This document shows positions 6,101 to 63,835 of a stretch of DNA of 64,000 bases, piece after piece. Numbering within the stretch: position 1 is the first letter of the stretch; each line of letters starts with the position of its first letter. Made by a program: the position numbers and the translations under genes. This stretch comes from Sipunculus nudus. Lineage: Eukaryota; Annelida; Sipuncula; Golfingiida; Sipunculidae. Location of the stretch: contig CM049314.1 of the NCBI GenBank assembly GCA_026874595.1, positions 76,772,300 through 76,836,299 on the forward strand, in the 5' to 3' direction. Under the pieces are notes generated by a model. That model was not told the origin of the DNA and ran no database searches. It worked only from the letters and a program-made list of their open reading frames with translations.

Positions 6101-9100
6101 CTGGATTACTTTGCATACATATTAATGACTTTTTAGCAATTTCTGTCAGGAAAAACAATCATATAAGTAATTTGATGCCTCTGTGGTTGATGTACACAGG
6201 CTTGTTTATCAACAAGCTGTTAGTAAACACACCAAGGCTGACAAACAGAAAAACCATGTATTCTAAGGCTGTTTGTTGCATATATACAGAAATTGATTGA
6301 TCAGTAGATTCAAAAAATCCTTGCAAAACCATGATTTGCTGACAGATGTTTCTTTGTTGAATGTGCCCCACTTTTTGTAAATGTTTTGATATAAACAATA
6401 CAAACAGCTTGTGTTTTATGGGATCAGGATTTTCTGGCAGATTTTTATAGAAGGTTCAAGGGATAATCTTTAGACATTGGATATCAGAGTATGGCCTTTA
6501 ATCTACAAATGGACTGTAAAAATCTTATTATTTTGTCCAGGCAAAGAATCCTCGGGATGTGAGGCTGAGGGGCCGCCTGCTGCAGCTGTACTTGGACACA
6601 GGGCGTGTGAACGAGGCATACACCCATGCTATCGAGGTGGAAAGCAAGGGACAGTACTGTGACAGTCTGGAGTGGTACAGGAGTATGCTGCAGGTCTTTC
6701 AGGTGTGCATTCTCTTTTATATGCTTTGGTTTATTTATTTATTTTTTTTTTAGGAAAAGGTATGTCAAACTTAAATAACATTTATTTATTTTTAGGAAAG
6801 AACAGCAAGCAGTGTAACAGTAATTTCAGACAGTGTCAGTCTGCATAGACCCATCTATATGGCCCCTATTTATACCCTAGTATCTCCACAGTTTTATCCA
6901 CAGATACTTCAATGACTGTTCATACTATGGGCAGCCTAAATATCGGAGGCAGTAATCACTCACATACCTGATGTTTCAGGGATTTCTACATCTACATGGC
7001 TTTGATTCAGGGATCAACAATTTGCACTGTCCTGGTGTACTGCAAATGCTTAAAGAAAACTTGAAAAATATTATTTGACTACAGATCATTTGCTGTCATG
7101 TGAATGTCTTATATATAATCAGCACACCTTCACTGCCATAAGCTGTTGTCGTAAGATTTTAAAGATATGGTCTTCTCAAATATTTTAGTTTAAACCTTGT
7201 ATTACCTACAAATGTGACCTTTTTGCTGTTTGTAGAAATAGGCCATTTTCATTAATATTGAACAATTCTCAAGGCTGTTAGTAATTAAATGAAACTATAA
7301 ATGACACATTTCTCATTCTTTATTTCATGTAATACTTGTGTTGTATGTAATACAGAGTTACAGAGAGGAGTCTGGGAGTAACATCAACGGTTCGTTCCAC
7401 ACACACTACTTGATGTGTCAGACTCATCTGATAGGACTCTCCCTCGAGGAAGCCAGTGTGGGAAGCTGTGTCGAAGTGCTGCTGGAGTAAGTCAACCAGA
7501 ATCTTGTAAAATACTCCAGTATTTAGCTCATGGCTCTTTGGCAATAACATTAATATTGTACAAGACTTAAGCCTTGTAGCAGGCCTAAACACCATTGTTA
7601 CAATTATGACATCATAATGGTTACCACAGTAAGATACAGATAACGTTTGGCGTAAGACACCTAGCTGACTTAAGTTTACTTTATTGCAACAGACCCCAGG
7701 TTTATTGTATTAAATCATTAATAAAGTCAGTCATGCCCGGTTGCATGCTCTCCTTCCGTATCTTTCAGTCTGGTTTTGTAATTTTTGTCCCCCACTCCGG
7801 ACTTTGATTTGGGTTTTTCTGTCAGTCTGTCTCTCTGTCCGTCTTTCAGGTTTTTTTTTCATTTCCGTGCGATAACTTTCCTAAATTTTCTCCGATTTCA
7901 TTCAAATTTGGGTCACTGATTGCTCTCATACCTACCTTGGTGAGGAATTAGATTTGGAGTGTCTGGCTTCTGTCTGTCTGTCTGTCACTTTGTCAGGTTT
8001 TCGTTTCCCTGCGATAACTTTCCTAAATTTTATCTGATTTCATTCAAATTTTGGTCAGTGATTGCTCTCATGCTTACCTTAGTAAGTTTGGTTTTTGAGA
8101 GTCTGTCTAAAAAATAATTCTCTCCAGCAAAAAATAAATTTATCAAATTTGGGTCCAGTATTTCAATGTGTTTTAGTTTTTATGTTCACCTAAGATGTCT
8201 CCACATGTCATAGTGCATCTGTTTAATTTTTCATGTGCCCTCAAGATTTTCTCCTCATATCATAATTTTTGTTGCTTATCTAGCATGAAAGACAACCAAA
8301 TCCCAAAGCAGGGGACATTTATTCTATGAATTTGCTTGTTTTTTAGCTCTCTTAGTTCTAAGTTATATGAACCTAATCATGTACTTTTCCCTCGTAGCTG
8401 AAACAGTCACAAACTGAAAAGAAGGTTAATCACATTCTGCATCTTATCTAATCCTGCTTTTATCTGAAGTTCAGGTTAACTGAAAATCTTTACGTAATAT
8501 TTAAAGTATTAACCTAATTGTGGAAACTTATGTAAGTCAGTATCCTGTGTCCATTAACACATGATGTATTATCTATGTGGGTGATGTTTTTGTTTTACAG
8601 AATGGATAATACTCTTGGGAAGCTGTCATCAAAACAGTGGGGACCTGAGTGGAAAACCTTTGTTACTGAAATGGAAGCCCAGTACTTCTATCATTTAGGG
8701 TCCTTGGTCTTGAAGAGGGCTTTGAAGGTAACAGATCAAATTTAAATATATACATAAACCCCTGTGCATGTGCTTTCAACAGGATAATTTTCAGTTTAAA
8801 TTTGATACCCTTTGAAGAGTCTATACTCATCCATTACCTGTTGTCTGTAAATTGTTTCAAATTGGTCATACAATCATTGCTGGGCTTTTGAAATACATTT
8901 TGACTCGTCTTAATTAATAAATGGTTTGTTAATAGGAAATAATGCTGACATCAGCATCATTTAACATTTGTTATCAATTTTTTTTTCATGTGAAGGTTTT
9001 GTCATTGACGTTTTACTATACAGCTGTCAATTTTAAGGGTTCAGTTTTGTATTGTAAAGCTCAGATTGCAAATCTTTACTTACCCATACAGTCTTATCAA

Positions 9101-12100: not shown

Positions 12101-15100
12101 ATGTTTGGTCTGATTTAGAGAATGTTTGTTGTCTGATTTCAGACTTGTCAGAAGTCCAATATGGCCACCAGGCAACCATCTTTTAATTCCTTTTGATCAT
12201 ATTATCTCAAGAACAGTTAAAGTGAATGCAGCTGGATGTATATTTATGTAATCTTGTAAAGGATTGGGTCAAATATTTCTGAATAAATATTACCATCATT
12301 TATAAAAGTGCAGTACAGTTGGCTTGTATTGAATAAAAATTCATACAGAAGCACCTGTTTCTCAATAATTCTTGCATGTATTTCCTTGATTTTTGCTATA
12401 TATTTTGATCTTATATTTGCCCTTTGTGGTGTTCCTTTTGAGACTGACAGGTTTCAAGCAAGCTGTTGGAATAGTTCCTGATAGCTTAACAATCATGCAT
12501 TTTCCTCAGACCATCAGTTCACTGTGTTTTAACCAGACATAGGTGATAAATATTTCTGTTGTCATAGAAAATTTTCAACAAATTGGCAAATTGGTTCTTC
12601 AAAATTTGACTGGAAGTTGTGAATCTCAGTCCATGATGTCACAGGTAATGCTTGGCAGCTGAGCGTCATGACCCATGGGTCACTTGTTTCTTTTTTATAC
12701 ACAAGCAGAATTTAATGTCTTATAGTTCCCTGAGCTGATTTAAATTCTTAAAAATATCACAGCATTTTTTTTAGTAATTGGTAATTTTAACTGCTGCATG
12801 AGTATAAATCAATAATTATACCTTCTTATCTTAATTTATGAGATCATTAAATGTTTATACAATTAATTATATTTTTCAATGATTTTTACTTTAACTAATG
12901 TTTGATTCTACAGGTCACATGCTCAAGTATTTACAACAGGGAAGTTTTGACAACACGAAAGAGACATGGCAGGCACATTTCTCCTCACGTGATGTAAATT
13001 TTGCTTTTGTTAATATTGCAAAAAATCATGAAATAATTCTGATCTATCATTGTAAAATAATTCTGTTATCTCTCCAGAACACAACTAGTGAGTCATAGTT
13101 TTTTCATAATTTTTTTTTTCATATCAGGACTCCTTCAGATTCCTGTATTTCTCATATTTTCCAGTATTTCCCATATTTTCCTGTATTTCCTATGTTTTCA
13201 TGTATTTCCTGTATTTTTATGGAAAAAAATGTTCACCTATAATTTCCTATATTTTTTAAGCATTTAGACCATAATCTCGTATATATTCATTTATTTTTTT
13301 CACAATAAGTTTTCCAGTATAACAGTAAATTGTTGTTATATAGATCTGTTATTATTGAAAACAATAAGTTCATTTGTAGAACTGTACCTTTAAGTGTACA
13401 AGTCATACAAGTGCAGTCATTGTGACCAGTTATGTACACCTTTATTTGTTGCTCCAAGAAATGATGGTCATTGTAAGTGACCAAGTAAAACACCATGGTG
13501 CAGTAAAAACTATATTTTCCTACATTCTCCTATATTTGTTTCACAAGAACCAATATTTCTTCAGGAACCAGTTATAGTGATGACCAATGGCTTTGTATAG
13601 ATTTGCCAAGCAAGTATGAAAAATATATATACAGTGAAACATCGTTGTGTAGAACTCACTTAAGTTGAATACCCCACTTTACGTCGAAGTTACACACTTG
13701 ATATTTGGGACAACTCTGGTAAAATTATTACCAAATTAAACCTGTTTGTGTCAACTTCAGACTTGTCGAAGTTTTCTGAGGGTCCCTTTGACCTCGACAC
13801 AACGAGGTTTCACTGTATATTTTCCTTTGACTGTATCAGAGGCCGGACATGTTTAATTTTATGAATTATAAAATAAACGTTTGTCTTTACCAGGGGAGAG
13901 AAGGATTGTACCGGTCCGTGTTTGGGGTGAGGAATGTAGAACAGGCCACCAGGTCATCTTTCCTGATTGGCTACGGCAAACAAGAATCATTGACAATCCG
14001 TCAGCCGAGAAAACAACAGTTACAAGAATATGATAAAGGTAGCATGAACTTAACCAGGAGATTGTAACAGTATAATATAATAATGATCTGTTAATTATCA
14101 CATTTTCATCAATACATAGATATACGTAAAAACTGTATTATAATAATGCTGGTGGGATGACGAGACAACTCTTACAAAAAGCATGATAGGTCAGACTAAT
14201 AATTTGGATTTTCGTAAGTTTGAGACCTAAAGCTTTTATACATGAACTTATTTTATTTGACCACATCCAAACCTAAAAGGTTCTGATGTATTTAAGAGCT
14301 CAGTATACAGTTTGCAGGTATTTATCTGTGGGTTATTTTCAGTCCTCTTTGTATGGAAGATAATCAGAAAGGCTTTTTACTTGAGGAGGAAAGTATTAAG
14401 AACAAAGACTTTACTATGTTTCATATTTTTAACCATTATTATATATTTCAGAAATATTCATATTTTTTTAATATATTTGTATTTTTACCTATATCCTTAG
14501 TTGCGTACCAACTCTTTCCAAACCAGCTTGACAAACTCACGTGGTTAGGAGTTCAGTATCACGAGACGCTGGAGAAACCACAACCAAACTGTGAGTACTC
14601 TGTCCAACATGTCACTGTGTGAGTACTCTGTCTAACATGTCACTGGGTCAGCACTCTGTCCAACATGTCACTGTATGAGTACTCTGTCTAACATGTCACT
14701 GTGTGAGTAATCTGTCTAACATGTCACTGTGTGAGTACTTGTCTAACATGTCACTGTGTGAGTACTCTGTCCAACATGTCACTGTGTGACTCTGTCCAAC
14801 ATGTCTCTGTGTGAATACTCTGTCAAACATGTCACTGTGTTAAAGAAATACAAACTGTGAGTACTCTGTCCAACATTTTACTGTGTGAATACTCTGTCCA
14901 ACATGTCACTGTGTGAGTACTCTGTCCAACATGTCACTGTGAATACTCTGTCCAACATGTCACTGTGTGAGTACTCTGTCTAACATGTCATTGTGTGAGT
15001 GTTCTCTCCAACATGTCACTGTGTGATTACTCTGTCCAACATGTCACTGTGCGAGTACTCTGTCCAACATGTCAATGTGAATACTCTGTCCAACATGTCA

Positions 15101-18100
15101 CTGTGTGAGTACTCTGTCTAACATGTCACTGTGTGAGTACTTGGTCCAACATGTCACTGTGTTAAAAAAATACAAACTGTGAGTACTCTGTCCAACATGT
15201 TACTGTGTGAATACTCTGTCCAACATGTCACTGTGTTAAAGAAATGCTGGGTTTTGTATATAAGTTATCACCCATCTGCATGAGGTTGTTTCTGTATCAA
15301 AGTGAACATCTTCAAGTTAGGCACTGTTAGTGGCTGGGCTACCCTACTTGTCTCACCTGTCAAACTTCAAGAGCAAATTTTGTCACAATTCAAGAAAAAG
15401 CTGTTTACACTGGTTACATGCATGCTTGCCAGATATTAAAAATTCCATGAAGTCCTAACCACAAAACATTCATGATCAGTTTGCCTTGAAACCATTCATA
15501 TCCAACATCTTTTATCAGACGACATTGCCCTCTTCACAACATTTAATTAATGCCTCGTGTATTTAAAAGCCCAGTATTTAAGGTACTAGAATACAGCAGA
15601 TTTCAAGGTATAATGGATAATACATAAAATACTTGATTAATAATACATCATCAGTCAGTTTATTGTTCAGTCATTGATTATGATTTTAAAACCAATTCCT
15701 ACTACTATATTACCCCATGTAATTTTACTTTGAGTGGAGTAAGATGGATTCAGTAAGGAAACCCTTTAATGCTGTGTATCTGCTGCAATTAATTAGCAGC
15801 ATTATTTGTGGTTATAATTAATTGGGATGTTGACAGCAAAATTTAAATGGTTACATGGCTATAACATTGGTTAATTTCTTGGAGAGATGTTTTACCCATG
15901 GCAAAAATAAAAATGGCTCTTCTTAGAAGATTGACTAATCTGAAAATGCAGAAATAAATTATCATTATGATTAATAACAAGCAAAAGTGTAAGTCAGGTA
16001 AGTTTATAAACATTCATAAAGATAGTGAAAATAAGAGATTATTGTATAATTAGTATTCAGAAAGCTTAACCTATGGCACTTTCCTGTGAATCAGAGACTG
16101 GTCTACACATGAATGGTCTCAGTACTTTGTTCTGGTTGTTGTAGATGAGTTTAACGTCTTCAGCGACATTCAGTTTAGTACTAACAGTCTGAACCATGCA
16201 GTGACAGAAACCTTCAGCTACATGGATGCACAGGTAAGCATTGAGCAGTTTGATTTATAATTAAAACTATACAGAACCTTAACATCATACTGAAGAATTC
16301 ACACTTAATTCTGCTAAGGAGTTACTATAATGTGATTAGCAAGAGGATATATACGTTACCTATTTGTTCTGATATTTTAATGGTTGTTTACTATACTCAA
16401 TACAACAAAAAACACCTGACACCACAGTATCATGACCACTTGTCTAGGACGACCACTTAATATGATCCGGACCTGTAAATATTGATATAAAACCTCCTTA
16501 CAATACCAGCCTGTTAACATAGCCATTTATCTTGTCCTTCCGGTGGTCATGTTAGAGTGATTATACTGTACTTACAATGGCAGCAGTCAACCAGTAAATA
16601 CCTCAGCATGCATACTGCTCTTCATTTGCCTTGACTCATCCTTAATCTTTTGCGGTCAATCATTTGGTCACAAGTCAGTGAAAGACAAAAGATTTCTTTG
16701 CACTTTGAGCCGTTATTGTTAATGCTGACTTTAATTAATATTGAGTGGCAATATTAACAACCTGAATTAATCTACTGTCAGAATTGTTTTACCACATTAA
16801 TTTCCACATTTAAATATCAAGAAAACCTATCAAAATATAAATGCTTGGACTGATGATTTATCATGTGTTTTTTGTAGGTTTTCTTGTTTGCTGCCGTGGC
16901 AACAGCTGCCAAAAATCACAAGACAGCATCGCAACAGTTGTTGTCAAGGCAACCTAACAGGCCTGAGATGTTACCAGCGTGTTTAACAGAACAACTGTGT
17001 ACAGCAGAACAAAGCAATTGGTGGAAGACGGCGTACAGCATCCTTACAAAGGAAAAAAGGTAAAGCAAGGTTAAAGTTACTCAAGGTCAGTGTTATCTAA
17101 GGTATGGGTCACCCAAGGTCATGGTTAACAGCGTCAAGATTAACCAGATTGAATCAGTTTCAAATTAATTCAGATTCCAAGTAGGCATGGCATTATCATG
17201 AAACATGGCACATCAGATTTCCCTTCAAATTGATGTTTTAGCATAATATATAAATTGAATGAGCCCAAACATCTATTCCTGAACCAGGATTGTGCTTTTG
17301 CTGTTCTTTTCTCTGAATTTTAAATGCAGTGTGCTATTTAAATATCAGCTTTAATGAATGATAAAACTTGCATATCCAAATGTGATATCAATTTATATCT
17401 AAAAACTGATGTAATCTTTGCTTTTTTGCACCATATAATAAAATTATATTTTAGACATATCCACTCTATATTCCAAGGCCATAATATTTATATGGAAGAT
17501 TGATCCTGTGTAGTGAATTTGAACGGAAAAATACTTTTCATCATAGGAGGAATCTTGATTCCTCTAAGAATATTCATTTACCAATGGAAACTTGAAGAAT
17601 ATATGATGAAACCACATGTACAGCATATCATATATCGCAGCAGAAAAAACAGCTTTTTATTTTAGACGACACAGCCAGTACTGAACCTCATGAATGGAAA
17701 AATTAGTCATTGGGATGCCAACGAGGTGTCCCCACTCACCCCTGATATAACTTATGTATTACAACATATAGCTTATAGAGCTTAAGAGGTAATAAAAAGG
17801 AAGAGGGAAAGAAGTTAGTGAAATAATAGACCTACTATCTCTGCTATATGAAACAAGAATTCAGGTAAGGAATTGGTAAGTTTTATACAATTCATAAAAT
17901 GGTTGACTGAAGAAATCTTGATTCTTTTTAACTTCAGCATCAACATATCCAAGCAGAGGCTGGTCCTGCAGCATGGACTGGAGGTGGTGCGTCTCCGAGG
18001 GAATCATGGGATTGATGCGGTGCTGGTGATGCATGTTGCACAATGTCTGGAAAACATGGTAAAAACTTTTCCAATAGAATTTCTTTCCTGAATTACCTTC

Positions 18101-24100: not shown

Positions 24101-27100
24101 GACAGATTTCTTGAAAGAAAATTAAACATTAATAGGGCTGCAATGATATATTTTCTCATGATATGTAATACTGTGATACTTTGCTCACAGTTTGATACAT
24201 GATGCGATACATATGTGCTGTATAATTAGAGTCCAAGCATAAATTTTTCATGTGTATGAACATGTAAATGACCTTATCGGCCAAAGATATTTCCAACCCT
24301 TAAATAAAATTTATTTCTAAATGATAAGCCGACTTATTCTTATCAATAGCCTTTCACCTTTGATGTATTGCATGATGCTAAGAGACTTTTAAATGATGAA
24401 TCATAAAATCAGATGATTCTGTATCGTACATACTGGTACAGGGTCATCTGACAGTGCTGATGTGATTAATGCCTGTGAATCGCAATGTGTCGGGTCCTTG
24501 TTAATCATAAAAACCCTAATGTGTTGACTGTAAAAAAAAATGCTCATTGAATAAATTAATAAATTGGAGCTTCCCTTTTTTTTACGACCAGAGCACCCGT
24601 CTGCAGCCCAGTCCTGAGCGTTTACACGCAGAGATTCGACGTTTGGGAATCTCAGTGCAGCAGCTGGTGGAGCAGAACGAGCAGATCCTAAAGCAGCACG
24701 ATGATCAGCAGAAAGCCATGACGTCTATGAAGAAAGAGTTTGAAAAAGTCAAGGTAACTTATTGAGAGTCGTTCATTTTCAGAATTTCAGCGTAGATTAT
24801 CCAGATGTGAAGGGTTTCCCTTGAGATGGGGCCAGCTTGTCACTGGCCCAGTAAACCAGTAGACCAATCAGATATGCACAAATCAAACGTGACTGATGAG
24901 TTTAGTTGCCATTGAAAGGGTTACTTTAAGCAGGGCTAACTTCTTAAAGTTTTATCCATGATTACTTGTTGTGAATAAACTGAGATATATACTAATATTG
25001 CTAACAAAATCTAAAAACATGCACATCTTATACATTTGAATGTGGGTATACACCATGTCATATATCTTGCCCTTTTTATCACAGTTATTGTTTTTACCCA
25101 TTGATTTGTTTCAGTACAATTCGATACATTTATTTGGGTTTTTCAGGCTGAGCTTGAAGATTTAAGAAAACGCAGTGAAACAACCGCAGGGCAGCTACCA
25201 CCAACAAGACCACGTGATCCTAGACGAGCACCTCCGTTGATGCCTTTCCACAGCCAGTACCCGAGCTTCGAGCATGACATCCTGCCAGCATTGTCTCCCA
25301 TGCAAGGCTACCCCATCTACCATCAGCCTCCTTTCATGTACCCTCAGGGGATGCCCCATGATCCTCTAGCTGCCCGCCAACCGGACCTTGGATCAGCTGT
25401 TTATGGGCTGGGGGAAGATTTTCCTGATGATCTCGAGGATTTGGAAAACATTGGGCAACCCCAGCAGAGCCATGTCCCGACAGCACTTCCTGATGCCCAT
25501 CTGACACCGGATTGGCCGTACGGCAACAATGTCAGTTTAGAAGGCAAATCCACGCTGACATATGCACCACCTCAGAGACAACCCGGGTATATGTTTGATT
25601 CGCTGCGTCCACAGTTAGGACAGCCCCAGCAGATGTTCACACCAGGTTCACAGCAGATAATGCCAGGTCCTGGATATTTCTCACCCCGCAGACCTGCTGG
25701 TCAGGTATCAGGTCGCTTCCATAGTCCTGCAAATATGCAAGGAGTACCGTTGACAATGGCACAAGCCCAACCAGTTGGACCTGCAGCGAGGGTCGCAGGA
25801 GGTATGCCTCATGAGGTGCAACCTTGTCCCAAAGATCCCCACCATGGGGCATCCATAAGTGCAGGAACACCAGGCTTGGCTGCAGCATCTAAAGTAAATA
25901 CGTCTTTCCCCATCAGCCTGCCTGAAAATAAGCAATCATCTGCTCCAGATATATACAATGTTGCTCCACAGATTGTACCAGAAGTGACTGATTTGGCAAC
26001 ACCAGATACTACATCAGTCCAAGTAGACAAACCTGCTCAGGTGCTTACTCCTACTGAGGCAGAGGCCAAAAATGGAGAAAGTATTCAGTTTGAAAACAAG
26101 GCAGATTTGTTGTTTCAGAAACCAGAATTGCTTAATAGAGGCCAGGGTCAGATGAGAGTGTTGTTCAATTCACAAAATCAAACAGGAAGGCTGATCATGT
26201 GGGACACCAGGACTGCACAGGTGCTTCTTCAGCATAACATCACCACCACAATGGTTGTAAATCAGCGAATCCCCGACAAAAAATCCCTCGACTGGAAGAC
26301 TCCAGCTGGTACTGATGGCAAAGAACAGACAGTAATCTGCATATTCCAGGATCTGCAGAGTGCAGAAGAGTTTCTTAAACAAATCCAGAAGATCCAGACA
26401 CAGATGAAGGTAAAGGAAGCCAGTGCTTCTGTACCATTTTCTGTTGGTGGTTTTTCTATGCCAGCATCAGAGTCATTGAAGAATATGGCACAACAAGCAC
26501 AGCAGAATGCAGGCAGCAAAGACACCCAGCCTAAGGCACTTTTTGGTGGATTCAGCTTCTCTAGTAAACCAGTAGTTGCTCCTGCAGCACCAGAAACCAA
26601 ACCTGAACCAGCTAAACCAGCCAAGAAACCACAGGAGGCTGAAAAACCTAAAGCGAGTCCTTTTGCTGGCTTCTCATTCACATCCCCTGGGGTAGGTGCA
26701 AGCAGTGATCAGACAACAAAAACTGGAGGAATATTTGGTTTAGGGCAGGGTTCTGGAGGCAGTGGATTGACTTTTGGAAATCTTGCTAAACAGGGAACAC
26801 CAGTTCAGGCATCCCCAAAAGCGGAGACCAAGACCGGATTCACTGGCGCAAAGATGTTCAGTGAAGCTGAGAGTAAAGATGCTACCGAAGCTGGAGATGA
26901 TGAAGGGGATGCTGGGAAGGGCCCAGATGATAGTTTTGAACCGACAGCTGATTTCAAACCACTTGTTTCATTGCCTGAGGTAGATACTATCACAGGAGAA
27001 GAAAATGAAATTCAGTTGTTTTGCCACCGTGCCAAACTGTATCGTTATGATAATTCCAGCAAGGCATACAAGGAGAGAGGACTTGGTGAACTTAAGATCT

Positions 27101-30100
27101 TGAAAGAAGACAAAAGTGGAAAGTATCGCATTGTTATGCGACGTGAACAAGTCCTGAAGGTATGCGCTAATCATTACATCACTCCAACAATGCAACTGCT
27201 TCCTCTGAAATCATCTGCCAATGCCTGGGTATGGACTGCTCAAGACTTCTCTGATGGTCAGCCAAATGTTGAACAACTTGCGGTAAAATTCAAAACTGAA
27301 GAGATTGCTGGTGAGTTTGAGAAGACATTTAAACAGTGTGTAGAAGAAACTTCTAAAAAACCAACACCATCAGAGAGTGTTCCACCTATGTCCCAAGTGG
27401 AAACTGTAGGACCTGGGGCCTCCCTTTCAGCAGCGTTCAAACCAGCTGCAGGAAGCTGGGAATGCAGTTCTTGTTACATCACCAACAAGCCTGGTACTCT
27501 AAAATGTGTTGCTTGCTCTGCAGCTCAGCCTGGAAGTGAGACAGCAAAGTCAAAACCAGCTCAGACCGCCCCTAAACAAGTATCAGCAACCTCAACTACA
27601 AAAGGGGTGTCACTCGCGGAAAAGTTCAAACCCAAAGAAGGCAGCTGGGAGTGTGCTGTGTGTTACATACAGAACAAACCTGACGCCAAGTCCTGCCTGG
27701 CCTGCCAGACACCAAAACCTGGATGTGAGGCAGAAGTTGCGGAGGAAACAAAAGCTTCTCAGCCTACTTCAGGGCCTATATTTGAGTTTGCCACAGGGTC
27801 AACTTGTGGGAACCAACCAGCATTCAGCTTTGGACAAGGTGGAGGATTTCAAATTGGTGGCAGCGGTGGGTTCAAGTTCGGAACAAGTCCTGCCACATCA
27901 GCGACAGCTACTGCAGCCAGTGCAGGTGGTGGCTTTTCATTCAGCACTTCATCTACTTCAACTTCAAACATTACCTTTGGAAGTGGTGCTGGAGGTTTTA
28001 CTTTCCAGTCATCTACTCCGGTGGATTTGTCGACCCCAAAGAAAGGACCTGAGACTATCGCAAAAGACGGCACTACAACTCCACCAAAAGAAGGACAAAC
28101 TGGGTTTTCATTCGGTTCTGACTCAACATTTACATTCAAAGGGGTGACTCCTACTAAAGATGGCAAAACCAGTGTGATGTCACCAAAATCACCTTTGTCC
28201 CCCGAGGGAGATTACTACAAGAATGAGGAAGGTGAAGACTCCCATATAATGTTTGAACCTGTCATCCCACTGCCTGATAAAATTGAAGTAAAAACAGGGG
28301 AAGAGGATGAAAATGAGCTGTTCTCATCTCGAGCAAAATTGTTCAGATATGTGACTGGTGAATGGAAAGAACGAGGAATTGGTAATATCAAGATTCTGGA
28401 GAACAAAGAGAGTAAGAAAGTCCGATTGTTGATGAGACGTGACCAGGTCTTAAAAATCTGCTTGAACCACTACCTGACACCAGATATGATGCTCAGACCA
28501 GCAGCTGGTTCTAATGGGAAAGGATGGGTTTGGTATGCAGATGACTTTTCAGAAGGAGACACGCAGCATGAACAGTTCGCTGTCAGGTTTAAAACACCAG
28601 AGATTGCAGAAGATTTCAGAAAAGCATTTGATACACACAAAGGTGGTGTAAAACAAGAAACCACAGAACCCAAAACACCAATGGAAGAGAAGAAAGAGGA
28701 TAAACCATTTGGTGCTCAAGGTTTTACATTTAAACTCCCAGGTGATCTGCAGAAATCTACCACAAGTGGCGCTGCTGGGTTTTCATTCAAACCATCATCT
28801 GGAACAGCAAGGAGTCCCCTGCTAAGTCAGCTACTGGACGGTCAAGGTGGGTTGAGGATATTTTTGTTTTTCTTTTATATCTTGAGTTCAGTCTTTATTT
28901 GCATTTGCTAATGTGAGTACTTATTTGGTGGTATTATGTAATTGTCTTGTCTCATAGTCATCATTAAATAAAAATGTACACCTAGGCAGCATAAGAAGAT
29001 ATCTTATTTTCAACTGGTTTGTGTATTCATATGTTCCTCTGTGTATCAGTAGTACTGGTTGAAACCCTCCAAATGTGATCTTTCTTCCGCATGAAAAAAG
29101 TTCCTTACATGTTTTTCCAGTGGAGGTGTTCAAGCCTCAAGTGCATTCTCTGATGATTTTAGCTGAAAGCATATTTTTTAATTTTCCTTCTGTTTGCTTC
29201 TGCCTCAAATGATCTATAATTGTATCCGCCAAAACGAAGTTTTGTGGATACTGTTTTTGACCGGGTTCCGCCGCCGCGTTCATTTCCAGAGAACTCCTCT
29301 GAGACTACCGGACGGATTTTTCCGAAACTTACACCAATTATTGGGTCACATGTGAACTGGTGCCTAACCAATTGGCCTTGACCTCTGACCTTTCCTCTCT
29401 GCCCAGTGTCCGTTTGTGCGTCTGTTTCCACACATAAACCCACATATCTCGGGAACCGTTTGAACGATAAGGAAAAAAATTTTGTACAAATGTAGCTCTA
29501 GGATAGCTCTATAACATACACAAAAAATGGTGGCGTCACCTACAACCATGTTTGCACAGTGTCCATCTGTTCATCTGCCTTGGGTTAAAATCACTCATAC
29601 CTCTGCAGTGGTTTGACTAATTCACCTGAAATTCGGTATGCATATACATCCTGGATTGCTTTCTTGATTTTATGACAGATGGCGCCATCTACATTCACGT
29701 TCACGCTGCAGACATTAATGCTTATATCTCCGGACTCGTTTGACCAATCAGAAAAAAAATTAAGAAATATGTAGCCCTTGGACAGCTATATAACATACAC
29801 AAAAATGGTGGTGCCACTTGCAGCAATTTTTGCACAGCGTCCATCTGTTTGTCTGCTGTGGGATAAAATCACTCATATCTCTGCAGTGGTTTGACGTTTC
29901 CACCTGAAATTTTGCATGTGTATACATCTTGGATAGTTTCTCGTTCAAATAACAGGTGGCACCACCTACAACCATGTTTAAGTGGCAGACATCCATTCTA
30001 ATATGTAACACCTGTAACTCTATTTCCCCTTGCCACTCAATCCATGCCTCACTTCACCTGTCGTACTCTGATTTTGGCGAATAGTCCAATAGTTGACAAA

Positions 30101-33100
30101 GTTTTTAAATTACCTTTGGGTCGAAATTTTTGATATTCCTGAAAAATGTGCATTGAAAACCATTAGGAAGAATCCTATGTAAATGTATATGAAAAGTATC
30201 TCACTGCTCACTTTGGTTGGTACATGTCACTAGATTTTGAACATAATACACAAATACTAACGTTTTACAGAGGTTGAAGGGGACAATGACGATGTTACAA
30301 TCATTGATGAGGTGCTGCCCTCTGACGAGCTTGTGAAGAAGGCTCTGGACTTACAATTACCAAAGAGTTTCTACAACTATATGACTGCTAAACCTTGCCC
30401 AGGATGCATAGGATGCAACAGTGATGATTTTGACTTTGGGGACATAGGAAAAGCAAAAACAATGACAGGTTTGTATAATATGTCCTTATGGTTGCCCAAG
30501 TTGAAGCAATCATGGACAGATTGGTGAAAAGAAAAGCTTTGTAAAATATACGCACTTTGTCCACTGGTTGATAATGTTTTTTAAGGTAGATATATATCAG
30601 TGAGATGTGACAGAGAATATTTAAAAATGAAAAATTTACCTAGGCACCATTGTAACATTCTTATTTTTATATGATAATGGGAAATATTTCATAGATAAGG
30701 ACAGAATGAATACCTTATATATATGCTTAATATTAAACAAATATGGCATCTTTATGTATCTTATATTTAAAGAAATATTTCTTTTTTAATAATGACAGAA
30801 TGAATTCTTAAATTGATGTGCTCATGGGAAATACTGTAAGAATTCATTAATAAAGAATGTGCTTGAATAACTTTGTCAACGATGAGGTTTCATTCCACCT
30901 TTTGTCCTTTTGCTGGACAGCCTGATACATGGACAGTTGCAGTATTTTAGCTCAGCTGACTGAAAGTCAACTGAGGTATAGGGATGGCACTTTGTCCGTC
31001 ATCTGTTCATTCGTCCATGTGTCTGGCTGTCTGGCCCTCCATTAACAGGGCACAAATTGTAACCATTTACCCTAGAAACTTGTAACTGAATATCCAGGTA
31101 GGTTAAAAAAAGTCTCCTTTGACACCTGAATTTAGGTTACTGCAACCTTTATCCCCCTGGCTATGGGACTCGTAAGTACCCCCCAGAATAATTAAAAATT
31201 TGACACAAAACCTCCAGTAACATGATAATTAATCCATGGATTGCCATGAATCTTGCCTTGAATATTGAACATGACTAGTTTTGTCAGTTCCTGAAAACTG
31301 GTGGCTCCACCTGTATTTTTCTATTGTTTACAGTTTTTGTTCTTTTTTTCAGACCATCAAATGGCAGCAGTTATGTCAGTTTATCACCTGTGGTTTTTAT
31401 CGAATGTCGTTAAACCCAGTGTGTTTATTGATTATGATTGGTTTCTTCAGTTCCTGAAGACATGTAGACCCCTGTAATTTTTCTATTTTTGATGCATATT
31501 TTCCTTTATTTTGAGACTGCAAAATTGTGCTGATGCTGTCAGATTCGAAACTTTTGTTTCACCTGTGTTCTGAAACCTTTTATGTTTATTATTAGGGCCC
31601 CATTTGAATAAGAGAATGCCCCATGTTCAACTTCCTGTATGTCAAAATTGTTTCCTGATGACAACTCCAGTATAGATTGACATATCGATTTCAAACTTGA
31701 CATATATGGCCCAACTCTTATGCAAGAAAATTATTGATTTTGGGGTCAAGAGGTCAAGGTCTCAGGACCCACTTATTTAAAAAGGTTGTGGATGCATTTA
31801 AAGCCAAACTTTTCATCCCAAACCTTCCATCTTGCACATATAACTGACCTGCCAAAAGGGGAATAACCTGAATGATTTTGGTGTCACAAGGTCAAGGTCA
31901 CAGGGGCAATATGTCCACACATTGGTTTCCGGATGACAACGCCAGGTTGGGTTGACATATTGATTTAAATCTTGACTTATATATGACACAAATAATGGAA
32001 GAACCCTTTTGATTTTTGGGTCATGAGGTCAGAGGTCAAGGTCACAGGACCTGCTTCTTTAAGAAGATTGTGGATGTATTTTGAGCCAAACTTTTCATCC
32101 ATATATTATCACCTGCCAAAAGCAGAAACAACTGATGGATTATTGGGTCACAGGGGCCATCTATCCACATATTAATTATTAGATGATAACTAGTTTGTTT
32201 AGACAGGTTGATCCAACCTGATTATATGACCCATATTTTGAAATAGCTCATAAACATATCCTTATAAAAGAATTCAGCTGAGCATCAAGACCCATGGTTC
32301 CCTAGTATATTTTTGCCATTTCAAGTGGAATTTTGTTTTAGTGTGAATATGAGAAACATCTTATTTTTCATTCACAGGTGCTGAATTTAAAGTATCCAGT
32401 TCTCAACCTGGTAAGTCTGTCAGCTTACCTGGTTTTACCCATTTAACTGTCAGACTAAGAGAAAAATTGTGATGTTTAACTGACAGCCTTCATGAAATCC
32501 ATATAATGAATTTAAGATGAAATATGACAAAAAGATCTATTATATTGCCACATTTTACAGACAGGCCAAATAACTGTTCTGATATGAGATCCATTTAGCA
32601 GTAGAAAAACAAGAAGTCAGTGCTGTAACCCTTTATTTTTGTATTTGACACATTCGGGTGAACTCTAGATTGATGTACCTACTTCTCCCCCGTATCTCTG
32701 ATAAATATCCATTTTTTTGTTTTTGTTTTCCAGACAAGTCATCAATCACAGGATCTGGTACGGAGGCTGTCTTTGGCGGCGTTAATTTCTCAGGCATGTC
32801 ATTCTCATCTCTGGCCTCTGGTGGTTCTGCTTCACCTTTTGGACAATCAACAGGTAATTACCTATCAACTTTTGGACAGTCAACAGGTAATTACTTATCA
32901 ACTTTTGGACAGTCAACAGGTAATTACTTATCAACTTTTGGACAGTCAACAGGTAATTACTCATCAACTTTTGGACAATCAACAGGTAATTACTTTTCAC
33001 CTTTTGGACAATCAACAGGTAATTACCTATCACCTTTTGGACAGTCAACAGGTAATTACTTATCACCTTTTGGACAGTCAACAGGTAATTACTTTTCACC

Positions 33101-36100
33101 TTTTGGACAGTCAACAGGTAATTACTTATCACCTTATAGACAGTCAACAGGTAATTACTTATCACCTTTTGGACAATCAACAGGTAATTACTTATCACCT
33201 TTTGGACAATCAACAGGTAATTACTTATCACCTTATAGACAGTCAACAGGTAATTACTTATCAACTTTTGGACAGTCAACAGGTAATTACTTATCACCTT
33301 ATAGACAGTCAACAGGTAATTACTTATCACCTTATAGACAGTCAACAGGTAATTACTTATCACCTTTTGGACAATCAACAGGTAATTACTTATCACCTTT
33401 TGGACAATCAACAGGTAATTACTTATCACCTTATAGACAGTCAACAGGTAATTACTTATCAACTTTTGGACAGTCAACAGGTAATTACTTATCAACTTTT
33501 GGACAGTCAACAGGTAATTACTTTTCACCTTTTGGACAGTCAACAGGTAATTACTTATCACCTTATAGACAGTCAACAGGTAATTACTTATCACCTTTTG
33601 GACAATCAACAGGTAATTACTTATCACCTTTTGGACAATCAACAGGTAATTACTTATCACCTTATAGACAGTCAACAGGTAATTACTTATCAACTTTTGG
33701 ACAGTCAACAGGTAATTACTTATCACCTTATAGACAGTCAACAGGTAATTACTTATCACCTTATAGACAGTCAACAGGTAATTACTTATCACCTTTTGGA
33801 CAATCAACAGGTAATTACTTATCACCTTTTGGACAATCAACAGGTAATTACTTATCACCTTATAGACAGTCAACAGGTAATTACTTATCAACTTTTGGAC
33901 AGTCAACAGGTAATTACTTATCAACTTTTGGACAGTCAACAGGTAATTACTTATCAACTTTTGGACAGTCAACAGGTAATTACTTATCAACTTTTGGACA
34001 GTCAACAGGTAATTACTTATCAACTTTTGGACAATTAACAGGTAATTACTTATCAACTTTTGGACAGTCAACAGGTAATTACTTATCAACTTTTGGACAG
34101 TCAACAGGTAATTACCAATCACCTTTTGGACAGTCAACAGGTAATTACTTATCTCCTTTTGGACAATCAACAGGTAATTACTTATCACCTTTTGGACAAT
34201 CAACAGGTAATTACCTATCACCTTTTGGACAGTCAACAGGTAATTACATTTCACCTTTTGGACAGTCAACAGGTAATTACTTATCTCCTTTTGGACAATC
34301 AACAGGTAATTACTTATCATCTTTTGGACAATCAACAGGTAATTACTTATCACCTTTTGGACAATCAACAGGTAATTACTTATCACCTTTTTGACAATCA
34401 ACAGGTAATTACTTATCACCTTTTGGACAATCAACAGGTAATTACTTATCACCTTTATGACAATCAACAGGTAATTACTTATCACCTTTTGGACAATCAA
34501 CAGGTAATTACTTATCACCTTTTGGACAATCAACAGGTAATTACTTATCACCTTTTGGACAATCAACAGGTAATTACTTATCACCTTATAGACAGTCAAC
34601 AGGTAATTACTTTTCACCTTTTGGACAGTCAACAGGTAATTACTTATCACCTTTTGGACAATCAACAGGTAATTACTTTTCACCTTTTGGACAGTCAACA
34701 GGTAATTACTTATCACCTTTTGGACAATCAACAGGTAATTACTTTTCACCTTTTGGACACTCAACAGGTAATTACTTATCTCCTTTTGGACAATCAACAG
34801 GTAATTACTTATCACCTTTTGGACAGTCAACAGGTAATTACTTATCACCTTTTGGACAATCAACAGGTAATTACTTATCACCTTTTGGACAGTCAACAGG
34901 TAATTACTTATCACCTTATAGACAGTCAACAGGTAATTACTTATCAACTTTTGGACATTCAACAGGTAATTACTTATCAACTTTTGGACAGTCAACAGGT
35001 AATTACTTTTCACCTTTTGGACAATCAACAGGTAATTACTTATCACCTTATAGACAGTCAACAGGTAATTACTTATCAACTTTTGGACAGTCAACAGGTA
35101 ATTACTTATCACCTTATAGACAGTCAACAGGTAATTACTTATCAACTTTTGGACAGTCAACAGGTAATTACTTATCAACTTTTGGACAGTCAATAGGTAA
35201 TTACTAATCACCTTTTGGACAGTCAACAGGTAATTACTTATCTCCTTTTGGACAATCAACAGGTAATTACTTATCACCTTTTGGACAATCAACAGGTAAT
35301 TACCTATCACCTTTTGGACAGTCAACAGGTAATTACTTTTCACCTTTTGAACAGTCAACAGGTAATTACTTATCACCTTTTGGACAATCAACAGGTAATT
35401 ACTTTTCACCTTTTGGACAGTCAACAGGTAATTACTTATCACCTTTTGGACAGTCAACAGGTAATTACTTTTCACCTTTTGGACAGTCAACAGGTAATTA
35501 CTTTTCACCTTTTGGACAATCAACAGGTAATTACTTTTCACCTTTTGGACAGTCAACAGGTAATTACTTTTCACCTTTTGGACAGTCAACAGGTAATTAC
35601 TTTTCACCTTTTGGACAGTCAACAGGTAATTACTTATCACCTTTTGGACAATCAACAGGTAATTACTTTTCACCTTTTGGATATCAACAGGTAATTACTT
35701 TTCACCTTTTGGACAATCAACAGGTAATTACTTTTCACCTTTTGGACAGTCAACAGGTAATTACTTTTCACCTTTTGGACAGTCTACAGGTAATTTCTTT
35801 TCACCTTTTGGACAGTCAACAGGTAATTACTTTTCACCTTTTGGACAATCAACAGGAAATTACTTATCACCTTTTGGACAATCAACAGGTAATTACTTAT
35901 CACCTTTTGGACAGTCAACAGGTAATTACTTATCACCTTATAGACAGTCAACAGGTAATTACTTATCAACTTTTGGACAGTCAACAGGTAATTACTTATC
36001 AACTTTTGGACAGTCAACAGGTAATTACTTTTCACCTTTTGGACAATCAACAGGTAATTACTTATCACCTTATAGACAGTCAACAGGTAATTACTTATCA

Positions 36101-39100
36101 ACTTTTGGACAGTCAACAGGTAATTACTTATCACCTTATAGACAGTCAACAGGTAATTACTTATCAACTTTTGGACAGTCAACAGGTAATTACTTATCAA
36201 CTTTTGGACAGTCAATAGGTAATTACTAATCACCTTTTGGACAGTCAACAGGTAATTACTTATCTCCTTTTGGACAATCAACAGGTAATTACTTATCACC
36301 TTTTGGACAATCAACAGGTAATTACCTATCACCTTTTGGACAGTCAACAGGTAATTACTTTTCACCTTTTGGACAGTCAACAGGTAATTACTTATCACCT
36401 TTTGGACAATCAACAGGTAATTACTTTTCACCTTTTGGACAGTCAACAGGTAATTACTTATCACCTTTTGGACAGTCAACAGGTAATTACTTTTCACCTT
36501 TTGGACAATCAACAGGTAATTACTTTTCACCTTTTGGACAGTCAACAGGTAATTACTTTTCACCTTTTGGACAGTCAACAGGTAATTACTTTTCACCTTT
36601 TGGACAGTGAACAGGTAATTACTTATCACCTTTTGGACAATCACCAGGTAATTACTTTTCACCTTTTGGATATCAACAGGTAATTACTTTTCACCTTTTG
36701 GACAATCAACAGGTAGTTACTTTTCACCTTTTGGACAGTCAACAGGTAATTACTTTTCACCTTTTGGACAGTCAACAGGTAATTTCTTTTCACCTTTTGG
36801 ACAGTCTACAGGTAATTACTTTTCACCTTTTGGACAGTCAACAGGTAATTACTTATCACCTTTTGGACAGTCAACAGGTAATTACTTTTCACCTTTTGGA
36901 CAGTCAACAGGTAATTACTTATCACCTTTTGGACAGTCAACAGGTAATTACTTATCACCTTATAGACAGTCAACAGGTAATTACTTATCACCTTATAGAC
37001 AGTCAACAGGTAATTACTTATCACCTTATAGACAGTCAACAGGTAATTACTTATCAACTTTTGGACAGTCAACAGGTAATTACTTATCACCTTATAGACA
37101 GTCAACAGGTAATTACTTATCAACTTTTGGACAGTCAACAGGTAATTACTTATCAACTTTTGGACAGTCAATAGGTAATTACTAATCACCTTTTGGACAG
37201 TCAACAGGTAATTACTTATCTCCTTTTGGACAATCAACAGGTAATTACTTATCACCTTTTGGACAATCAACAGGTAATTACCTATCACCTTTTGGACAGT
37301 CAACAGGTAATTACTTTTCACCTTTTGGACAGTCAACAGGTAATTACTTATCACCTTTTGGACAATCAACAGGTAATTACTTTTCACCTTTTGGACAGTC
37401 AACAGGTAATTACTTATCAACTTTTGGACAGTCAACAGGTAATTACTTTTCACCTTTTGGACAATCAACAGGTAATTACTTATCACCTTATAGACAGTCA
37501 ACAGGTAATTACTTATCAACTTTTGGACAGTCAACAGGTAATTACTTATCACCTTATAGACAGTCAACAGGTAATTACTTATCAACTTTTGGACAGTCAA
37601 CAGGTAATTACTTATCAACTTTTGGACAGTCAATAGGTAATTACTAATCACCTTTTGGACAGTCAACAGGTAATTACTTATCTCCTTTTGGACAATCAAC
37701 AGGTAATTACTTATCACCTTTTGGACAATCAACAGGTAATTACCTATCACCTTTTGGACAGTCAACAGGTAATTACTTTTCACCTTTTGAACAGTCAACA
37801 GGTAATTACTTATCACCTTTTGGACAATCAACAGGTAATTACTTTTCACCTTTTGGACAGTCAACAGGTAATTACTTATCACCTTTTGGACAGTCAACAG
37901 GTAATTACTTTTCACCTTTTGGACAGTCAACAGGTAATTATTTTTCACCTTTTGGACAATCAACAGGTAATTACTTTTCACCTTTTGGACAGTCAACAGG
38001 TAATTACTTTTCACCTTTTGGACAGTCAACAGGTAATTACTTTTCACCTTTTGGACAGTCAACAGGTAATTACTTATCACCTTTTGGACAATCAACAGGT
38101 AATTACTTTTCACCTTTTGGATATCAACAGGTAATTACTTTTCACCTTTTGGACAATCAACAGGTAATTACTTTTCACCTTTTGGACAGTCAACAGGTAA
38201 TTACTTTTCACCTTTTGGACAGTCTACAGGTAATTTCTTTTCACCTTTTGGACAGTCAACAGGTAATTACTTTTCACCTTTTGGACAATCAACAGGAAAT
38301 TACTTATCACCTTTTGGACAATCAACAGGTAATTACTTATCACCTTTTGGACAGTCAACAGGTAATTACTTATCACCTTATAGACAGTCAACAGGTAATT
38401 ACTTATCAACTTTTGGACAGTCAACAGGTAATTACTTATCTCCTTTTGGACAGTCAACAGGTAATTACTTTTCACCTTTTGGACAATCAACAGGTAATTA
38501 CTTATCACCTTATAGACAGTCAACAGGTAATTACTTATCAACTTTTGGACAGTCAACAGGTAATTACTTATCACCTTATAGACAGTCAACAGGTAATTAC
38601 TTATCAACTTTTGGACAGTCAACAGGTAATTACTTATCAACTTTTGGACAGTCAATAGGTAATTACTAATCACCTTTTGGACAGTCAACAGGTAATTACT
38701 TATCTCCTTTTGGACAATCAACAGGTAATTACTTATCACCTTTTGGACAATCAACAGGTAATTACCTATCACCTTTTGGACAGTCAACAGGTAATTACTT
38801 TTCACCTTTTGGACAGTCAACAGGTAATTACTTATCACCTTTTGGACAATCAACAGGTAATTACTTTTCACCTTTTGGACAGTCAACAGGTAATTACTTA
38901 TCACCTTTTGGACAGTCAACAGGTAATTACTTTTCACCTTTTGGACAATCAACAGGTAATTACTTTTCACCTTTTGGACAGTCAACAGGTAATTACTTTT
39001 CACCTTTTGGACAGTCAACAGGTAATTACTTTTCACCTTTTGGACAGTGAACAGGTAATTACTTATCACCTTTTGGACAATCACCAGGTAATTACTTTTC

Positions 39101-42100
39101 ACCTTTTGGATATCAACAGGTAATTACTTTTCACCTTTTGGACAATCAACAGGTAGTTACTTTTCACCTTTTGGACAGTCAACAGGTAATTACTTTTCAC
39201 CTTTTGGACAGTCAACAGGTAATTTCTTTTCACCTTTTGGACAGTCTACAGGAAATTACTTTTCACCTTTTGGACAGTCAACAGGTAATTACTTATCACC
39301 TTTTGGACAGTCAACAGGTAATTACTTTTCACCTTTTGGACAGTCAACAGGTAATTACTTATCACCTTTTGGACAGTCAACAGGTAATTACTTATCACCT
39401 TATAGACAGTCAACAGGTAATTACTTATCACCTTATAGACAGTCAACAGGTAATTACTTATCACCTTATAGACAGTCAACAGGTAATTACTTATCAACTT
39501 TTGGACAGTCAACAGGTAATTACTTATCACCTTATAGACAGTCAACAGGTAATTACTTATCAACTTTTGGACAGTCAACAGGTAATTACTTATCAACTTT
39601 TGGACAGTCAATAGGTAATTACTAATCACCTTTTGGACAGTCAACAGGTAATTACTTATCTCCTTTTGGACAATCAACAGGTAATTACTTATCACCTTTT
39701 GGACAATCAACAGGTAATTACCTATCACCTTTTGGACAGTCAACAGGTAATTACTTTTCACCTTTTGGACAGTCAACAGGTAATTACTTATCACCTTTTG
39801 GACAATCAACAGGTAATTACTTTTCACCTTTTGGACAGTCAACAGGTAATTACTTATCACCTTTTGGACAGTCAACAGGTAATTACTTTTCACCTTTTGG
39901 ACAATCAACAGGTAATTACTTTTCACCTTTTGGACAGTCAACAGGTAATTACTTTTCACCTTTTGGACAGTCAACAGGTAATTATTTTTCACCTTTTGGA
40001 CAGTCAACAGGTAATTACTTATCACCTTTTGGACAATCACCAGGTAATTACTTTTCACCTTTTGGATATCAACAGGTAATTACTTTTCACCTTTTGGACA
40101 ATCAACAGGTAATTACTTTTCACCTTTTGGACAGTCAACAGGTAATTACTTTTCACCTTTTGGACAGTCAACAGGTAATTTCTTTTCACCTTTTGGACAG
40201 TCTACAGGTAATTACTTTTCACCTTTTGGACAGTCAACAGGTAATTACTTATCACCTTTTGGACAGTCAACAGGTAATTACTTTTCACCTTTTGGACAGT
40301 CAACAGGTAATTACTTATCACCTTTTGGACAGTCAACAGGTAATTACTTATCACCTTATAGACAGTCAACAGGTAATTACTTATCATCTTATAGACAGTC
40401 AACAGGTAATTACTTATCACCTTTTGGACAATTAACAGGTAATTACTTATCACCTTTTGGACAGTCAACAGGTAATTACTTATCACCTTTTGGACAGTCA
40501 ACAGGTAATTACCAATCACCTTTTGGACAGTCAACAGGTAATTACTTATCTCCTTTTGGACAATCAACAGGTAATTACTTATCACCTTTTGGACAATCAA
40601 CAGGTAATTACTTATCACCTTTTGGACAGTCAACAGGTAATTACATTTCACCTTTTGGACAGTCAACAGGTAATTACTTATCTCCTTTTGGACAATCAAC
40701 AGGTAATTACTTATCATCTTTTGGACAATCAACAGGTAATTACTTATCACCTTTTGGACAATCAACAGGTAATTACTTATCACCTTTTTGACAATCAACA
40801 GGTAATAACTTGCACCCGGAAAATACATTTACAGTGTCTCATAAAGTAGAGTGAAATCTCACCTGACATCCACCCTGCTATGACGACCACCCTCGCTAAG
40901 AAGACCTTAGGTCCCGGACACTTGTAAATCATCATAAAAACCTCATGCTTACACAACCATTTTAGCTGGTCCCGCAGGTGGCCAAGTCAGCGAGGTTTCA
41001 CTGTATTTACAGTTTGAAATATTATTTTAAAAAAGACTTTAGTTCTCAGAATTTAAAAATTCCCCTGACCCTGATCAGTAATGCCCAGAGAATTTTCAAT
41101 TCACATAACAGATTTATTAACTTCCCAGCCAGCTTAGACACCTGCAGGGTTTGGAGATTCACATAGATTGATGACACCAACGTTATATCAAAGCAGTGAT
41201 TATCATGATTTCAACTATTTCATTAACACAATCTATCCCACTGCAGTTTCCACATTGTTTGTTCCCTACTCAGCCATTGATCTTTCTCAGGGTTCGGTGG
41301 TTCTCCAGGATGGAGTGGGGCAGGATCCAAGCTCTTTGGCGGAGTGAAAGATACGGAAGGTGATGAGGATGACGGAGATGAAGACGAGGCCCCAACTAAT
41401 GATGACATCCATTTTGAACCAATCGTGGATCTGCCCCCTTTACAAGACACCAAAACAGGTTGAATGTTTGATCTATTCAATGACGCTGTCAATCTTACAG
41501 TCTAATTTAAAATCATAAGAATTCCTTTTTTTTGCCTGAATTTAATTTTATCATGTATAGTTGTTGCCTGGTTTCAAACCAAGAAATTAGTTTACTCGAT
41601 AATAAAATCATGGAATTATAATTCTGAGAATTTGTAATAAGTAAATTTTTACTTATTTAAATATGTCAAACCTGGCTGTTACAACAAAGCCCCATATGTT
41701 ATTACTCGTAAATATTCTTACTGGCCATTTTATGAAGAGTTTCCCCAATAATTTAAAGGACCCTTTTACTGCCCCCCCCCCCCCCCACCTCATGAGGATA
41801 ATTTATTTTGTAAATAATTGTTATAAGGTGAGGAGGGCATGGAGAAACTCTTCAGCCACAGAGCTAAGCTGTACAGATGGACAGATGGTACATGGAAAGA
41901 GAGAGGGATCGGAGAAATCAAGGTGTTACGGGACCCACAGTCTGGTATGTACTGTACAGTGTATCACTGTATTAGTCTATTCATTAAAATCTTTTAAGAT
42001 TTTACCTTTTAAAATCAATTTGTATCATACTGATTACATTTGTTAATTAAGTTAACATCTCTTTTCAATGGCTTTACAAGAGTAACTAGTTAAAAAAAAT

Positions 42101-55565: not shown

Positions 55566-63835
<8,270 letters not shown>

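Follow-up and report, generated by a model that had tools for sequence, protein, structure and literature searches.

The window analysed here, a 64,000-nucleotide stretch of the Sipunculus nudus genome (GenBank assembly GCA_026874595.1, contig CM049314.1, positions 76,772,300 to 76,836,299 of the forward strand), contains an exon that runs directly into an array of 242 tandem copies of its own 5′ splice site. To judge by its sequence, the gene is RanBP2/Nup358, a nuclear-pore gene. We propose that splicing relies on the first, exon-side donor and that the copies behind it are probably near-neutral decoys, some of which perhaps give rise to minor in-frame isoforms with additional phenylalanine–glycine (FG) repeats. 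Positions below are those of the window, features lie on its plus strand unless stated otherwise, and a slash marks the exon–intron boundary.

The array was delimited and its units counted with Tandem Repeats Finder (TRF) and by unit-by-unit alignment, which agree on the 242 tandem 33-bp units in a RanBP2 intron that an earlier reading, made from the letters alone (the sequence-only reading), had reported. TRF places the array at 32832 to 40811, with period 33, 242.0 copies and 94% matches; the start is the one given earlier, and the end lies 6 bp beyond the earlier 40805. Each unit joins 22 nt from the end of the exon to 11 nt from the start of the intron (TCACCTTTTGGACAGTCAACAG/GTAATTACTTA), as had been surmised, and unit 1 is the end of the genuine exon (22 nt) followed by GTAATTACCTA. 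In the unit alignment the donor GT is retained in 239 of the 242 units. The donor word CAG/GTAATT, formerly ascribed to every unit, is exact in nearly all of them (230/242); six units have TAG/GTAATT, two CAG/GTAGTT, and one CAG/GTAATA. The remaining three, all CAG/GAAATT, are the few units that were correctly said to have lost the GT. In the computed duplex with the 5′ end of U1, CAG/GTAATT has an energy of −8.1; the donor of the preceding exon comes to −8.8, the full consensus to −11.8, and the units without GT to −4.5. The array donor is ordinary in strength, and its copies are nearly equal.

The array has the features of a minisatellite, with tandem 33-bp units, interspersed variants, and higher-order blocks. 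The near-perfect homogeneity claimed for it was overstated, since the 242 units fall into 37 types, the commonest of which accounts for 42, and their likeness is segmental. With a shift of 2440 bp (74 units), identity is 98.7–100% in eight 300-bp stretches between 35100 and 37499 and at most 58% in two 300-bp stretches after 37499. The largest block period is 74 units, units 98 to 120 and 172 to 194 matching in type over 23 consecutive units. An identical 1-bp deletion is found in five units, and such deletions start at unit 87. The array was therefore built partly from segmental blocks, and the recent or ongoing amplification suggested before holds in part, as the recent, segmental copying of the 2440-bp block. 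A unit-derived 24-mer, searched with up to one mismatch, occurs at 178 places in the window and at 178 in the whole 1.43-Gb assembly, and it has no match in 100 shuffles of the window that served as a control. Because all 178 places fall in the window and none in the shuffles, the array is neither a chance pattern nor part of a dispersed satellite, a candidate that was rejected on this count.

The assignment to RanBP2, made in the sequence-only reading as well, is supported by database matches. A giant exon open reading frame (ORF), measured from stop to stop (25105 to 28911), encodes three RanBP1 domains and two zinc ribbons according to Pfam (Ran_BP1, E 7.3e-103 in three stretches; Zn_ribbon_RanBP, E 1.4e-14). 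The array exon joined to the exon at 41291 matches Nup358 chains in the PDB (E 3.4e-17), and the joined translations of the N-terminal exons match RanBP2 chains there (E 1.6e-9). The RanBP1 domains, zinc ribbons, and N-terminal helical region characteristic of RanBP2 are thus all present. The 41291 exon is coded at three places in the assembly (E ≤ 0.001), in three RanBP2 copies on one contig (G000:C9) at 76.8, 78.49, and 78.51 Mb. In one paralogue (L001) the homologous exon has a single donor, CCCACAG/GTAATTC, followed by unrelated sequence. Since that exon has one donor, the array is derived and the donor of unit 1 ancestral; on this comparison we regard the array as a derived, junction-spanning minisatellite. 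The other paralogue (L002) is without the array exon: its alignment to the window skips from 32447 to 41046, with a TCAGA seen by eye to be shared at the break. This third RanBP2 copy may be partial: its first match corresponds to window position 25508, and in the 5.8 kb between that match and the last matches of the neighbouring copy a single 37-bp piece matches the window. Comparison of the window exons before and after the array with the paralogues gave dN/dS values of 0.046–0.33 and no stops in seven of seven comparisons. The array-bearing gene thus seems to be working, and a dead gene is disfavoured by these values.

The reading frame divides the array in two. The preceding exon (32378 to 32410, 33 nt) ends in phase 1 at the donor CTG/GTAAGT. 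The array exon (32734 to 32853, 120 nt), placed by its sequence, frame, joins, and L001 homologue, is in phase 1 at both ends, encodes ...SASPFGQSTG, and ends at CAG/GTAATT, its last 22 nt being the start of unit 1. As 33 nt make 11 codons, each unit read in the exon frame specifies SPFGQSTGNYL, an FG repeat. Behind the array, the remainder of the intron (40812 to 41290) ends in the acceptor CTTTCTCAG, and the next RanBP2 exon (41291 to 41458, 168 nt, GFGGSPGWSGAGSKLFGG...) follows in phase with donors 1 to 47. When each of the 242 donors was joined in silico to that exon, 47 joins were open, namely those of donors 1 to 47 (units at 32832 to 34382); donors 48 to 242 led to a premature stop, the first being a TGA at 34392–34394 in unit 48 (34383 to 34415). 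All 47 open units keep CAG/GTAATT; the FG is present in 37 of them and replaced by YR in 10. The array was previously taken as purely intronic, and this in-frame FG coding was missed. Beyond the first stop lie 192 of the 239 intact donors, and the array as a single coding exon was rejected, its frame being broken by the stop in unit 48, by later stops, and by the 1-bp deletions.

Substitutions were counted by parsimony over the 37 unit types, which gave 40 inferred changes, some of which, where they recur, may be recombination rather than new mutation. Of these, 12 are synonymous, 23 are missense, and 5 create stops, while 8.9, 27.2, and 3.8 would be expected without selection on the protein (P = 0.15 for 12 or more synonymous changes). 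Purifying selection for protein is not visible across the whole array, and the substitutions look non-coding.

We propose that the array was born through tandem duplication of a 33-bp segment lying astride the 5′ splice site of the RanBP2 exon and that further duplication, local as well as segmental (74-unit), extended it into the intron. Most transcripts would still be spliced from the first, exon-side donor, which would dominate in RNA. Exon definition is likely to be the cause: the 120-nt exon would be defined across itself by its own acceptor and its nearest donor. The later units would then be mostly decoys, and the array would be close to neutral. Because the unit is 11 codons long and the donors are in phase 1, occasional use of donors 2 to 47 would do no more than lengthen the protein by 11-residue units, mostly FG repeats; donors 48 to 242, if used, would yield a premature stop. 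With open joins confined to donors 1 to 47 in a gene that seems functional, early donors should receive most of the splicing. The three modes of donor choice listed in the sequence-only reading (first donor, random choice, several donors in turn) do stand as options, but not as equally likely ones. Uniform random choice is less likely because only 47 of the 239 donors are productive, and use of the exon-side site is favoured because the companion arrays and others in the genome have frame-breaking units, which should otherwise be damaging.

Those other arrays mean that the RanBP2 array is not the singular oddity it was first taken for. In the window, all three arrays with at least five copies of a 20–100-bp unit span a splice junction, a cut-off that was chosen after the arrays had been seen. 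The second one (14590 to 15236, about 23 units of 28 bp, TRF) starts exactly at the donor of a putative N-terminal RanBP2 exon (14501 to 14590, ...NQLDKLTWLGVQYHETLEKPQPN), which ends in ACCAAACT/GTGAGT; this exon and its neighbour match RanBP2 chains weakly (E 0.0036, PDB), and the exon alone has no RanBP2 match. The array holds 12 exact GTGAGT words, and two later places also carry ACAAACT/GTGAGT, resembling the exon end. The third array (55687 to 56613, minus strand, 16.6 units of 56 bp, TRF) consists of tandem 3′ splice sites. Its unit holds TTTTCAG and the first 29 nt of the following exon, 14 acceptors are recognised, and directly after the exon-side acceptor comes that exon, the final one of a glutathione reductase gene (55566 to 55715, minus strand, 49 codons and stop; Pfam Pyr_redox_dim, E 1.1e-15; PDB glutathione reductase, E 5.8e-25). 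Neither of these units preserves the frame (28 mod 3 = 1; 56 mod 3 = 2).

Arrays outside the window were compared at L001 to L003, a fourth locus (L004) being left out. L002 has no array of the above size (20–100-bp unit, five or more copies), and L001 has a 39-bp array in mid-intron; both weigh against a bias towards junctions. The L001 array (23.1 copies, L001 positions 4120 to 5018) is an unrelated minisatellite in the homologous intron, some 340 bp from the exon, and many of its units carry the acceptor-like and donor-like words TTTTGCACAG and CCTGTTAGT or CCTGTAAGT. The arrays at L003 are not assignable to a junction. One of them (L003 positions 6517 to 7029) has about 14 units of 37 bp with CACAGGTCATCTGT, of which the window seems to have one unit copy near 54274.

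For a genome sample, a pattern of three AGGTAAGT was searched, and arrays were clustered from the first matches listed, on contigs C1 to C4. The pattern has 223 + 500 = 723 matches, and those listed first cluster into 22 arrays. Twelve of these start at an apparent coding-exon end (L006, L007, L009–L013, L017, L022–L025), nine do not have that look (L005, L008, L014–L016, L018–L021), and the start of L026 was not reached. As L023 resembles L024, 11 of the anchored arrays may be independent. These two loci (G000:C3, 73.79 and 73.83 Mb) are similar exons 37 kb apart, each with a 22-bp donor array, so that the array may be older than the duplication or may have originated twice. Pfam searches with the ORFs upstream of 15 arrays, out of 22, gave four matches, all below the curated cut-offs (best E 0.0012–0.016): PH at L009, ABC_membrane at L010, cNMP_binding at L012, and GGL at L013; the other 11 had no match at E ≤ 1. 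Of five loci sent to the PDB, L012 matched PKA RI-alpha (E 2.6e-24), L010 ABCC2 (1.4e-6), and L009 the SKAP55 chain 1u5d (9.6e-4), and L013 and L023 had no match. Open-frame runs beside 18 of the arrays (L008, L011, L015, and L026 were left out, the flank being too short or not reached) are longer upstream than downstream (medians of 44 and 19.5 codons, P = 0.003), but they do not clearly exceed those read from the antisense strand of that upstream flank (median 32, P = 0.18). The unit length is a multiple of 3 in only 4 of the 12 anchored arrays (L009, L010, L011, L025), which is the chance level; in the other eight, including PKA RI-alpha with its 38-bp unit, a second donor would shift the frame.

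The reversed pattern, used as a control, has 308 + 281 = 589 matches. Those listed cluster into three arrays within the first 7.6 Mb of C1, a stretch without any donor-pattern array. The pattern count (723 versus 589, in a clustered listing) does not establish that donor-bearing arrays are commoner than control arrays. If anything, the control speaks against junction hot spots. Because the control arrays sit where the donor pattern has none, we claim recurrence and not enrichment: junction-spanning arrays recur in this genome. The edges of ABC-transporter exons were rejected as an unbiased sample of the array rate, 25 loci looking bacterial. These loci (L029–L053, contigs C61–C137 of G000) are on small contigs and have mostly long open frames; ten places on nine contigs have equal score, and nine of these places have equal frame length. 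The contigs are probably bacterial DNA in the assembly, from a symbiont or a contaminant.

Several points weigh against decoy donors behind a used first donor. Of the 40 changes, 5 lie in the 9-base donor, where 10.9 would be expected (one-sided P = 0.02), which weakly suggests that the later donors could matter. In experiments with duplicated donors, the copy closest to the acceptor is reportedly preferred in some cases; here that would point to the last units. The pairwise dN/dS values are silent on which copy is constrained. In the genome sample, exon anchoring of the 12 arrays was judged by eye, with strong database support only for L012 and L010 and weak support for L009. An excess of exact AGGTAAGT in first units does speak for the exon-side donor (11 of the 12 anchored arrays, compared with 7.9 expected if first units were like the others, P = 0.03), but with L011 out of register the count is 10 of 12 (P = 0.085), GT alone gives no excess in first units (11/12 versus 10.5, P = 0.61, L011 again out of register), and the arrays entering this test had been selected by exact AGGTAAGT.

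It is tempting to see in the open units a generator of FG repeats, with donors 1 to 47 used in a spread to produce RanBP2 proteins with 1 to 47 SPFGQSTG(NYL) units, under selection. Units 1 to 47 would suit this role, being open, with CAG/GTAATT in 47 of 47, FG in 37 of 47, and an in-frame join to the next exon in all, and the array exon and next exon align to an FG-type stretch of Nup358. Nevertheless, we consider such a generator unlikely, given the lack of synonymous bias in the array substitutions, the stops from unit 48 and 1-bp deletions from unit 87, and the change of FG to YR in 10 of the 47 open units. The lack of stops among the 14 unit types of units 1 to 47 is weak evidence, as only 3.8 of the 40 changes are expected to be stops.

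It is more doubtful still that the array impairs its exon, which would be skipped or mis-spliced to premature stops, with lower output and compensation by the paralogues. Skipping would keep the frame (120 nt, phase 1 at both ends), paralogue L002 does without the exon, and the first stop is followed by 192 of the 239 intact donors. On the other side, the neighbouring exons have dN/dS values of 0.046–0.33 and no stops, and L002 may not fully substitute for the gene, given the single 37-bp match in the 5.8 kb that separate its own first match from the last of the neighbouring copy.

The AG directly before GT, juxtaposed as CAG/GTAATT in 230 of the 242 units, would also suit ratchet (recursive) splice points that remove the intron stepwise, with the same outcome as splicing from the first donor. 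We find this very improbable: by eye, the 20 nt before the GT (ACCTTTTGGACAGTCAACAG) do not form a clean pyrimidine tract, units with G at position 15 have a further AG 7 nt upstream, and an intron could not be as short as 33 nt, which would call for long steps. That the assembly has expanded a shorter array, for example by joining the 2440-bp block twice, finds some encouragement in the 98.7–100% identity over eight 300-bp stretches, but it is hardly credible for blocks that differ at some sites and an array within a 79.8-Mb contig, and the array would be the same in kind if it were shorter.

With decoy donors behind a used first donor as the favoured reading, the closest known system is, by analogy, the minisatellite of human IFI6 (G1P3, 6-16), reportedly the subject of work by Turri, Cuin and Porter (1995, NAR 23:1854); the RanBP2 array would be a very large version of it. 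The IFI6 minisatellite has a 12-bp unit, which preserves the frame, in some 26 copies. Human IFI6 reportedly produces three mRNA species because two repeat units further downstream act as splice donors (PMC4526556). Both minisatellites offer several splice donors to one transcript, those of RanBP2 being predicted from sequence; the RanBP2 array starts at the exon end, its donor is copied across the units (GT in 239 of 242), and its 33-bp unit preserves the frame for donors 1 to 47, as the 28-bp and 56-bp units do not. The two differ in that use of later donors is reported for IFI6 and is a prediction for RanBP2. The RanBP2 array also has a 33-bp unit in 242 copies, codes for FG, and is blocked in frame from unit 48, and the same genome holds other such arrays, one of them at an acceptor. 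Introns can also be gained through a tandem duplication holding AGGT, where one duplication makes one new intron. The founding event proposed here is likewise a tandem duplication with AG/GT, whereas the result is hundreds of copies within a pre-existing intron, none of them long enough to form one itself. With ordinary intronic minisatellites (variable number tandem repeats) the array shares short units (here 33 bp), segmental blocks, and interspersed variants, and it differs in that its founding unit spans a functional splice junction. Among the literature matches listed, as titles, abstract beginnings, and passages, there was no equivalent either for arrays at exon–intron junctions or for mollusc RanBP2 FG repeats.

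A broader conjecture, which we hold only tentatively and think rather less than probable, is that splice junctions are preferred birthplaces of minisatellites in this genome. Arrays would grow from the exon into many introns, shielded by a rule that the exon-side site wins, and RanBP2 would thereby store up to 46 extra in-frame repeats, mostly FG, one splice choice away. The companion arrays (the 28-bp donor array, the 56-bp acceptor array, and those at the PKA RI-alpha and ABCC exons) bear on how general such a rule may be.

The RanBP2 array amounts to a natural experiment on spliceosomal choice among 239 near-identical 5′ splice sites 33 nt apart, in which the reading frame marks productive (1 to 47) and unproductive (48 to 242) choices of donor. 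If donors 2 to 47 are used at all, splicing noise would alter the number of FG repeats in a nuclear-pore protein.

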